A stretch of DNA of 64,000 bases from NCBI RefSeq assembly GCF_016612535.1, contig NZ_JAENXS010000001.1, forward strand, positions 2,319,501-2,383,500, given 5' to 3'. The translations under genes and the position numbers were made by a program. The notes beneath the pieces were generated by a model. It made no database searches and was not told the origin of the DNA. It saw nothing but the letters and a program-made list of their open reading frames with translations. Below, piece after piece: positions 25,254-30,591 of this stretch (positions are counted from its first letter, which is position 1; every line of letters starts with the position of its first letter). The DNA is from Bradyrhizobium diazoefficiens. GTDB taxonomy: Bacteria > Pseudomonadota > Alphaproteobacteria > Rhizobiales > Xanthobacteraceae.

Positions 25254-27725
25254 ATGATCATCAGCATTGTCGGCGGCGGCGCCACCGGCATCACGGCATT
25301 GCGTCATCTGGCGGAGCTCATCGCATCAGAGCGCTACCAAGGCGCCATCAGCGGCATCCAGCTCTTCGATAAATCCGGCTTCGACGGGGGCGTCGCCTAC
25401 CGCACGCAGAGCGACCGTCATCTGCTCAACATGAAGGCGTCGACGATGTCGATCCGCCCGGGCGATGCGGAGGAATTTCTGCGCTGGGCCCAGGCCCGCG
25501 GTCTCAACTGCCGCGCCCACGATCATCTGCCACGCATGGTCTATCGGGACTATCTCGACGCCATACGGTCGGCAGCGATCGCCCGATGCTACAGCGCCGG
25601 AGTGCCGGTTCATGTCGAACATGCCGAGGTGGTCCGCATGCGGTTCTCGCCGGATCGCGACGTGCTGCTGACGACCGACCGCAACGTCACGCATATCTCG
25701 TCCGTGCTGATCCTCTGTACCGGCCACAATGCGCCCGATGATCACTACGGCCTTGACGGCTGTCCAAATTACATTCGCGATCCTTACGGCACGTTCTCCT
25801 TCGCGGACCGCGACGACATGGCGGTCGGCATCCTCGGAAGCGGACTGAGCGCGGTCGACACCGCGACCGCGCTGGCCAAGACCCACCGGGCGGTGAGGAT
25901 GACCTGCTTCTCCAGAAGCGGCCTGTTCCCCACGGTTCAGCCGGTCACCGCTCCCGCAATCTCGAACAACTTTCGCGACGCTCTGCATCGCTATGTGATC
26001 GGTCGGCAACGGGTCGAGGCGGACGCCTTTGCCGCCCGCCTCTCCGAATTGCTGCTGGAGGTCACCGGCATTCGCTGCGATTTATCGTGCCATGACATCG
26101 AGCGCGATGCGCTGACCGATCTCGAGCGCAACATCGCGCAGGCCGAGACCGGCGGGCCCAACGTCTACTCTTACCTCGTCAGCGTCATCAACGTCATGTG
26201 CGACGCCTGGAGCCGGATGAGCGACGTCGAAAAGACGCGGTTCATGGCGGTCTACAATTCCGGCTGGCTTCGCAACCGGTCAGCGATGCCCCGCGACAAC
26301 GCAATACGGATTCGCGACCTGATGCGATCGGGGAGGCTGTCGGCCTGCGGCAGGCTGCGCAACGTGACCGAGATCGACGGCCGGTTTCGCGTGATCCTGG
26401 GCGGAGGTCGACATCGCGAGATCGACTACGTCATCGACGCGACGGGGCCATCCTACCGGCTGGACGCCAGCCCGCTCTATGTCGACATGCAGCGGCAGGG
26501 ACTGGTGACGCTCGACGCGCTTGGGGGCGTTCGCTGCGGCTACGACGACAGCCGCGTCCACGACCGGCACGGCACCCCCTATCCGAACGTCTATGCGGTC
26601 GGCGGTCCCACCAAGGGCGCGCACTTCTACGCCGCCGCCGTCGACATCAACATGCACCGCGCCCAGGCCGTGATCGATTCGATCCTCAACCCGAAAGGTT
26701 CGCAGATGAGCACCATCACGACGTCCATCGATGAAACCGACCGCCTCGCCGATCTCGTGCGCCGCGACCATCCCTCACTCGACACGATGGTACTCGCAGC
26801 GGACGGCAAATATCAGACCAGGCCGGCAGCGCTGGACGAATTGATGTGGGAGGTGAGGGACTGCGTCGGCGAGGCATTCCGGAACCGGGCGCCTGAAGAC
26901 TTCCCGACACTCTATTGCGCATGGGGGCGCTGCCGCGTCGGCTCGACCGCACTCACCAATCTGTTCGGCGTCGCCGGTATGCCCTCCTACTTCCAGCCGG
27001 TGAAGGTGGTCCTGCGCCATCGCCTGGTCGGACATGCAGGCGAACCCTGGGCCGTGCCGCAGGCGTCGGAGCAGCCGCATATCTTCAGCAAGGAAATGGC
27101 GGGGCCTTACGTGCTGGCCGAGAGCCTGTTCCTGCCGCTGGAGCCGCTGATCGAAGCTGGTTGGCCTGCCGACAAGCTCCACATGATCATGCTCGACCGC
27201 GATCCCGCGTGCTCGCTCGCATCGTGGCTCGAGAAATGGTCGGACCGCGTTCCCGAGGACCGGCTGATCCAGAACTACGTCATCTCCACACTCAACGCCC
27301 TTCGCGTCGAGGGCTATGCAAGGCGGCACGGCGTACCGGTGACCCGTTACGTCTACGAAGCCAGCAAGGATGCGACCGGCTCGGTGCGAAAGCTGTTCGA
27401 CCGGCTCGGCCTTGGCGCACGCTTCACGGAAAGCGCAGTCACCGACTGGAATGAACGCGGGCACATCGAATCGAAAAGCTCGGGCGTCACCTTCCTCAGC
27501 GAGCCCAAGATCTACACCGTTACCGGTCTTCACGGATCGGACACCGCCTACCGCTACCGCAGCCGCAAGACGACGTCGCTGACCGATGCGCAGCTGGAGG
27601 TCATCGAGCGCTATGGCATCGACGACATGTACCGCGCCTCGGTCGCGGCCTGCATGCGCGATCTCTCGCTGGATACCGACACCGCCGCCCACTTGTTCGG
27701 CGATTGCCTGGGCACAGCCGCATGA
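25254..27725 (+). CDS. Fusion of a FAD/NAD(P)-binding oxidoreductase and a putative PAPS-dependent sulfotransferase
   Basis: 823 residues in two parts. Residues 1 to about 480 match the FAD_NAD_binding_9 / COG4529 type: a Rossmann dinucleotide motif IVGGGATGITALRHL, the GVAYRTQSDRHLLNMKASTM region, a second nucleotide motif VGILGSGLSAVD near 200, and a closing VIDATGPSYRLDASPL and NVYAVGGP. Residues ~485-823 look like a sulfotransferase: WGRCRVGSTALTN resembles the 5'-phosphosulfate loop and MLDRDPACSLASWLEKW resembles the 3'-phosphate-binding motif of PAPS enzymes. The sulfotransferase assignment is inference from these motifs plus context. The gene overlaps cysD by four bases (ATGA) and heads a cysD-cysNC operon. 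An internal in-frame ATG at 26706 has AAGG seven bases upstream, so a separate 339-residue sulfotransferase might also be made. Confidence 0.8.
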   Translation: MIISIVGGGATGITALRHLAELIASERYQGAISGIQLFDKSGFDGGVAYRTQSDRHLLNMKASTMSIRPGDAEEFLRWAQARGLNCRAHDHLPRMVYRDYLDAIRSAAIARCYSAGVPVHVEHAEVVRMRFSPDRDVLLTTDRNVTHISSVLILCTGHNAPDDHYGLDGCPNYIRDPYGTFSFADRDDMAVGILGSGLSAVDTATALAKTHRAVRMTCFSRSGLFPTVQPVTAPAISNNFRDALHRYVIGRQRVEADAFAARLSELLLEVTGIRCDLSCHDIERDALTDLERNIAQAETGGPNVYSYLVSVINVMCDAWSRMSDVEKTRFMAVYNSGWLRNRSAMPRDNAIRIRDLMRSGRLSACGRLRNVTEIDGRFRVILGGGRHREIDYVIDATGPSYRLDASPLYVDMQRQGLVTLDALGGVRCGYDDSRVHDRHGTPYPNVYAVGGPTKGAHFYAAAVDINMHRAQAVIDSILNPKGSQMSTITTSIDETDRLADLVRRDHPSLDTMVLAADGKYQTRPAALDELMWEVRDCVGEAFRNRAPEDFPTLYCAWGRCRVGSTALTNLFGVAGMPSYFQPVKVVLRHRLVGHAGEPWAVPQASEQPHIFSKEMAGPYVLAESLFLPLEPLIEAGWPADKLHMIMLDRDPACSLASWLEKWSDRVPEDRLIQNYVISTLNALRVEGYARRHGVPVTRYVYEASKDATGSVRKLFDRLGLGARFTESAVTDWNERGHIESKSSGVTFLSEPKIYTVTGLHGSDTAYRYRSRKTTSLTDAQLEVIERYGIDDMYRASVAACMRDLSLDTDTAAHLFGDCLGTAA

Positions 27726-30591: not shown

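Follow-up and report, generated by a model that had tools for sequence, protein, structure and literature searches.

A fused flavoprotein-sulfotransferase with its own PAPS-synthesis genes and an adjoining chemoreceptor gene forms a candidate sulfation cassette in Bradyrhizobium diazoefficiens

In the sulfation of Nod factors by NodPQ and NodH, a sulfotransferase is served by its own CysD and CysN-C proteins, and it is established biochemistry of these families that CysD together with a CysN-CysC fusion makes 3'-phosphoadenosine 5'-phosphosulfate (PAPS) from sulfate and ATP. A sulfotransferase and a FAD enzyme also occur together in the methanobactin operon, where they are named MbnS (PF00685) and MbnF (PF01494) (PMC3621798). 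Here we describe a locus in a 64,000-nucleotide stretch of the 7.99 Mb Bradyrhizobium diazoefficiens genome (G000), hereafter the window, in which a flavoprotein and a sulfotransferase are joined in a single 823-residue chain whose gene is followed by cysD and a cysN-cysC fusion. As this chain matched neither PF00685 nor PF01494, a methanobactin-type cluster was ruled out. Among the titles and abstract openings of the open-licence PMC literature we found none that describes this arrangement, which does not show it to be unpublished.

We propose that the fusion gene, cysD, cysN-cysC and an adjacent chemoreceptor gene constitute a four-gene, self-sufficient sulfation cassette (Table 1) that would N-hydroxylate and then sulfate a small molecule, with a link to chemotaxis; we regard the chances of this proposal as evenly balanced. 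CysD and CysN-CysC would convert sulfate and ATP to PAPS, the flavin half would prepare the acceptor, most likely through N-hydroxylation of an amine, and the sulfotransferase half would then place the sulfuryl group of PAPS on the N-OH so formed or on a hydroxyl nearby. Housing both activities in one chain would let a reactive intermediate pass directly between the halves. The chemoreceptor would most likely respond to the small-molecule product, to a precursor of it or to some related compound from outside. A more specific version, in which the cassette makes an amine or oxime with an N-O-sulfonate, the bacterial equivalent of the N-O-SO3 group found in plant glucosinolates, and the co-inherited chemoreceptor guides the cell or its kin by that compound, seems to us quite unlikely.

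The gene arrangement predicted by an initial annotation of this DNA was largely borne out: we recovered the 823-residue open reading frame, placed its two sulfotransferase-like motifs at the WGRCRVGSTALTN and MLDRDPACSLASW sites, and found the overlapping stops and starts. The likelier CysD start, ATG 27722, shares bases with the stop codon of the fusion gene in an ATGA overlap (TTG 27704 is the alternative), and the CysNC ATG at 28696 overlaps the CysD stop by one base. CysD (NF009214/TIGR02039) and the CysN-CysC fusion (NF004035), named in that order by the annotation, both exceed their NCBIfam cut-offs. The annotation had also placed the fusion gene at the head of the module, a view that we revise, as the chemoreceptor gene lies 134 bp upstream and belongs to the same gained-and-lost block. 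Our scan for promoters and terminators gave three terminator-like sites against 4.2 in shuffles and two promoter-like sites against 1.0, and is uninformative on co-transcription of the chemoreceptor gene.

The first half of the fusion had been annotated as a FAD/NAD(P)-binding oxidoreductase; this assignment stands (PF13454 NAD_binding_9 at residues 5-158, E 1.3e-35) and can be sharpened. Its nearest solved relative by profile search, Foldseek and Z score alike is 8cp2, an L-aspartate N-hydroxylase and thus a class B N-hydroxylating monooxygenase, which is matched over 471 residues with a Z of 30.4 (next other entry 26.2) and a profile E of 8.9e-16 (next match 1.7e-5). The flavin half has the two-Rossmann FAD/NADPH fold with a helical third domain, including GGGATG, which we take to be the FAD-binding motif, and GILGSGLSAVD, presumably the NADPH site. 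A catalytic asparagine over the flavin, expected of class B N-hydroxylating monooxygenases, is present as Asn59, aligned with Asn62 of 8cp2 by hand counting on the printed alignment. These nearest relatives suggest that the flavin half most likely belongs to the N-hydroxylating class B flavin monooxygenases and acts on an amine.

The second half escaped the usual models: no Pfam sulfotransferase model matched any of 50 family members at E<=1 or the window protein at E<=10, and Pfam as a whole sees nothing in this part of the chain. Sequence searches of the PDB were equally fruitless, the sulfotransferase profile returning one meaningless match (E 0.99) and the full protein none, so that a fold comparison was needed. 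This gave a PAPS-sulfotransferase fold (all 50 VIA entries among the matches listed), in agreement with the annotation. In the WGRCRVGSTALTN loop, W73, G74, R77, G79, S80, T81 and N85 are invariant across 50 sequences, as are D164, R165, P167, S173 and W174 in the MLDRDPACSLASW motif. Arg165 and Ser173 are spaced like R130 and S138 of SULT1E1, and the roles of the PAPS motifs are assigned by analogy with known sulfotransferases. From the fold and the conserved PAPS-site residues, we infer that this half moves the sulfuryl group of PAPS onto an acceptor.

The annotation had divided the protein at Met485, the division also used here; what it missed is that this codon probably still serves as an internal start, from which additional free sulfotransferase would be made beside the fusion. 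An AAAGG motif sits 7 nt before the Met485 ATG (26706-26708) and is kept in nine of ten fused genes, a count that includes the broken copy of L053. All 34 fused database proteins carry a methionine no more than 16 residues before the RLAD-type motif of the sulfotransferase, and the joint appears to retain an ancestral sulfotransferase start codon. When nine fused genes were compared in nine-codon windows, the five windows of 815 with the highest synonymous conservation were those that begin at codons 477-481 (0.96 at the joint, the mean being 0.74). At codons 481 and 482, eight of the nine have AAA and GGT, respectively, both of them less used codons; GGT at 482 ranks first among 53 glycine positions, and lysine 661 is also AAA in 9/9. 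Selection on an internal ribosome-binding site would best account for this conservation among the close relatives compared.

The fusion is found in many species. The flavin half was detected in 13 of 265 Bradyrhizobium genomes, ten of which hold an intact fusion (open frame 824-856), while the frame is interrupted in G094 and G034. A further set, overlapping with these genomes, comprises 34 fused database proteins (P0121-P0154, P0121 being the window's own cluster), two of them shortened to 695-696 aa. This breadth excludes a frame error or single-strain artefact, and the annotation's claim of a real fusion holds. The sulfotransferase is more widespread, occurring in 53 of the 265 genomes (counting the broken copy in G034 and a fragment in G096), and across its family the flavin half is optional; the annotated scheme of oxidation followed by sulfation therefore cannot cover the whole family. 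At family level, the flavin half was seen in 7/391 genomes and 2/47 genera. The two other sulfotransferase-positive genomes at class level hold sulfotransferase, receptor and methyltransferase (L189 and L190, the latter identical in sequence to the L084 locus). In the genus and class surveys, only part of the first-look candidates were scored in some genomes, and the locus and genome sets overlap (L047, L053, L054, L056 and L084 look like G018, G034, G029, G014 and G339).

One locus from another genus (L183, genome G851) carries the order chemoreceptor, flavin protein, sulfotransferase, cysD, cysNC as separate genes amid different flanking genes, the flavin and sulfotransferase matches lying ~106 bp apart. 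A tree built by a quick method under LG+G4, with several long branches, has at least four changes of the fused state, or six if rows with unknown context are counted as unfused, and fusing and splitting thus seem easy. Its taxa were 30 unfused and 8 fused database proteins picked by hand, loci L045-L112 minus the broken L053, and L183; the split state was read directly in L183 alone and assigned to the database proteins indirectly.

The chemoreceptor belongs to the cassette. Its signalling domain is unambiguous (PF00015, E 5.3e-32) and a HAMP domain is also present; its sensor half matched no Pfam family over the cut-off (best WHEP-TRS, E 0.12). Among 36 Bradyrhizobium genomes, a sensor of >32% identity was found in 7/7 that have the sulfotransferase and 0/29 that lack it, 12 of the latter holding a sensor relative of 26-32%. 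In each of ten negative genomes, picked from the 29 among the best rsmB matches, the site is empty: 345-448 bp separate the tblastn matches to the nuclease and rsmB genes, and cassette genes are absent both from this gap and from its vicinity. The same two genes are ~8 kb apart in the window. Together, the co-occurrence of the sensor and the empty sites indicate that the block comes and goes as a whole, and in all 34 Bradyrhizobium loci a receptor adjoins the sulfotransferase or its flavin half. Sensor length does not single out loci with the flavin half. The long form is seen in the window and in nine of nine flavin-positive Bradyrhizobium loci, and ~105 residues of it are missing from 21 of 25 negatives, but the other four (L070, L072, L077 and L078) have it too; it tracks lineage, and we draw no evidence from it. 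Natural partial losses occur in L184 (G080), L191 (G096), L051 and L070; in G096 a sulfotransferase fragment remains, the receptor and the start of the sulfotransferase being gone.

Two more CysD-CysN(C) pairs are encoded elsewhere in the genome. One sits with a siroheme synthase, a sulfite/nitrite-reductase-type gene and a PAPS reductase, neighbours that mark it as assimilatory. The other (L043, G000:C1:3351001-3371000, positions 8605-11508) lies ~6.6 kb from nifD and is possibly the Nod-factor sulfation set. When the genome's cysG, sulfite/nitrite-reductase-type and cysH proteins were searched by tblastn against the 64 kb, CysD, a homologue of cysH, was the sole match, which excludes an assimilatory sulfate pathway in the window. 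Both annotated features, a PAPS-synthesis pair of its own and no linked sulfate-reduction gene, are upheld, and with an assimilatory pair elsewhere and no counterpart of the assimilatory genes in the window, the window's pair would have a dedicated role.

Linkage to chemoreceptors recurs outside Bradyrhizobium. In 20 of 22 other alphaproteobacterial loci a chemoreceptor gene with a Cache sensor match (confirmed by Pfam in L084 and L079) lies downstream of the sulfotransferase, immediately next to it in 18 and behind a methyltransferase gene in L063 and L093; L094 and L110 have no chemoreceptor in their loci. Four genomes counted hold 26 to 86 receptor genes, and we estimate the chance of a receptor within 2.3 kb of a random gene at <10% at the highest density. 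These 22 loci are not independent, and their flanking genes differ in several groups. On the more specific, quite unlikely version of the proposal given above, the association of two sensor types with one sulfotransferase family would suggest that the link between the sulfated product and chemotaxis has at least two origins. A PRMT-like methyltransferase (one protein compared) is a frequent neighbour, in 7/34 Bradyrhizobium and 10/22 other alphaproteobacterial loci (for example L084 10854-11858 and L063 4094-5059).

Beyond Alphaproteobacteria, where Pfam was run on the neighbours in L104 (Burkholderia set) and L102, a lysine/ornithine N-monooxygenase relative, a cupin-MetRS gene and a DAO-type oxidase lie near the sulfotransferase in four of 12 loci. 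These clusters (L104, L095, L096 and L107), from Burkholderia and Actinomycetes, could possibly make sulfated hydrazine-type natural products; cupin-MetRS-type enzymes make hydrazines in known pathways (PMC11705231). Six Micromonosporaceae loci have a non-ribosomal peptide synthetase (NRPS; Pfam in L102) and two ABC-transporter-like genes, recognized by eye, beside the sulfotransferase. A 659-aa protein (L102 2522-4501) is conserved beside the NRPS and the sulfotransferase in these six loci and matched no Pfam family at E<=0.01. In the alphaproteobacterial L110 a methyltransferase and an exporter-like gene of the major facilitator superfamily (MFS; by eye) precede the sulfotransferase, while L090 and L097 have no such small-molecule partner genes. 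Most of these neighbourhoods point to a small-molecule acceptor. Apparent NRPS matches in Bradyrhizobium were disregarded, being located at an acetate-CoA ligase gene.

Several observations weigh against the proposed cassette. As many as 41 of the 53 sulfotransferase-positive Bradyrhizobium genomes lack the flavin half and only 12 have both, and G080 has kept the flavin half and lost the sulfotransferase and cysD-cysNC. The sulfotransferase family is rare, in 3/385 genomes of the class including the window's own. Further away, cysD-cysNC is absent from the fetched flanks in 19 of the 22 other alphaproteobacterial loci, and within flanks of up to 8 kb none of the 12 loci outside Alphaproteobacteria has a chemoreceptor or cysD-cysNC. 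On the structural side, Foldseek by itself gives little for the sulfotransferase half (two rows at E<=0.001, TM-score (template modelling) 0.41-0.46), and the full-length model has a predicted TM-score (pTM) of 0.66 and no reliable domain packing. Asn59 is kept also in distant NAD_binding_9 relatives and is therefore no proof of N-hydroxylation. Neither of the aspartate-site arginines of 8cp2 that could be checked is conserved (Arg13 is replaced by Thr11 and Arg577 falls within an insert), and the arginine entry chamber of the L-aspartate N-hydroxylase is thus lacking at these two positions, Arg276, Asn413 and Arg416 not being alignable.

These points leave room for other explanations. The flavin half may hydroxylate or oxidise carbon or sulfur, or be a plain YdhS-like oxidase or reductase, with the sulfotransferase sulfating an ordinary hydroxyl and no N-O chemistry at all; we consider this somewhat unlikely, as 8cp2 ranks higher on Z over its 471-residue span and stands well apart from the next match in the profile search. 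That the sulfotransferase, alone or together with the PRMT-like methyltransferase, instead modifies a motility protein or surface glycan such as the chemoreceptor, flagellin or a polysaccharide is improbable: members of the family also lie in NRPS and cupin-MetRS clusters of Actinomycetes and Burkholderia, the MFS-exporter-like gene adjoins the sulfotransferase in L110, an N-hydroxylase-like flavin partner is a poor fit, and the receptors have sensors of two different types.

The fold matches include the curacin sulfotransferase domain, which installs sulfate as a leaving group, and N-hydroxylase and cupin-MetRS genes lie near the sulfotransferase in the four loci above. Both are consistent with a purely activating sulfation, in which departure of the O-sulfo group would drive an elimination, a rearrangement or the formation of an N-N bond, leaving an end product free of sulfate. 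This we rate as very unlikely; a term search of a review on N-N bond formation found no words starting with sulfotransferase, sulfate, sulfonat or PAPS. Least credible is the idea of spare sulfate-assimilation genes beside a chance or decaying neighbour, with no dedicated pathway. It could draw on the loss of cysD-cysNC in L051 and L070 and of cysD in L067, the broken copies in G034 and G094 and the fragment in G096, and is countered by the invariant PAPS-site residues in 50 relatives, the assimilatory pair elsewhere in the genome and the maintenance of the block as a unit, in which form it occurs at two kinds of location.

Table 1. Features of the candidate cassette and its borders, in window positions.
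Feature	Position	Strand	Remarks
Nuclease-like gene, left insertion-site border	22309..22902	-	thermonuclease-like E 2.9e-8, below cut-off
Methyl-accepting chemotaxis protein	23068..25119	+	683 aa from TTG; alternative ATG 23089
One-chain fusion gene	25254-27725	+	ATG 25254, TGA 27723-27725; 823 aa
Flavin half, residues 1-484	25254..26705	+	predicted class B N-hydroxylase-like FAD/NADPH monooxygenase
GGGATG, residues 7-12, putative FAD binding	25272..25289	+	alignment
Asn59	25428..25430	+	invariant in 22/22; aligned with catalytic Asn62 of 8cp2
Second Rossmann motif GILGSGLSAVD, residues 192-202	25827..25859	+	alignment; putative NADPH site
AAAGG ribosome-binding-like motif and in-frame ATG (Met485)	26694..26708	+	likely internal sulfotransferase start
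Sulfotransferase half, residues 485-823 plus stop	26706..27725	+	
WGRCRVGSTALTN, 5'-phosphosulfate-binding loop, residues 557-569	26922-26960	+	role by analogy
MLDRDPACSLASW, 3'-phosphate-binding motif Arg165-x7-Ser173, residues 646-658	27189-27227	+	same spacing as SULT1E1 R130/S138
CysD, sulfate adenylyltransferase small subunit	27704..28696	+	NF009214 E 5.4e-161
CysN-CysC fusion, sulfate adenylyltransferase large subunit and APS (adenosine 5'-phosphosulfate) kinase	28696..30591	+	NF004035 E 1.4e-280
rsmB, right insertion-site border	30928..32361	+	NF008149 E 5.1e-85, below its cut-off

Elsewhere in the window, a heparinase II/III-like protein is encoded at 32480-34237, between rsmB and purH; its gene adjoins rsmB at the empty sites too and is probably unrelated to the cassette. 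At 46709-48130 a cytochrome b561-type gene is followed by one for a molybdopterin oxidoreductase resembling MsrP or sulfite dehydrogenase.

If the proposed cassette is real, it defines a family of sulfotransferases that Pfam does not cover, joins sulfotransferase to N-hydroxylase-like chemistry in one polypeptide, and connects the navigation of bacteria with a sulfated metabolite in genera that include Bradyrhizobium, Azospirillum and Nitrospirillum. It is also compact, and close relatives differ cleanly in having or lacking it.

Compared with described systems, the locus shares parts with several. Like NodPQ and NodH, it pairs a sulfotransferase with its own CysD and CysN-C, but it adds a flavin half and a chemoreceptor, and a separate CysD-CysN(C) pair lies near nifD. 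As for a NodH-type sulfotransferase, no Pfam sulfotransferase model matched here, no NodH sequence having been compared. The window family shares its fold and the layout of its PAPS-site motifs with PAPS sulfotransferases (TPST, SULT, SOT16, StaL and the olefin-synthase and curacin sulfotransferase domains), from which it differs in its low identity (8-17% among the matches listed) and in falling outside the Pfam sulfotransferase models; PMC4042000 concerns plant sulfotransferases. The flavin half resembles the L-aspartate N-hydroxylase of Streptomyces sp. V2 (PDB 8CP2, of the FzmM/CreE type; PMC10404684) in its fold, FAD/NADPH sites and catalytic asparagine, but shares ~20% identity with it, is shorter (484 versus about 600 residues), has not kept its Arg13 and Arg577, and is fused to a sulfotransferase. 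In the ascamycin cluster (acmK/acmW/acmB), a natural-product sulfotransferase likewise comes with PAPS-synthesis genes, whereas neither a flavin-enzyme fusion nor a chemoreceptor is described in the available part of that report (PMC9113183).
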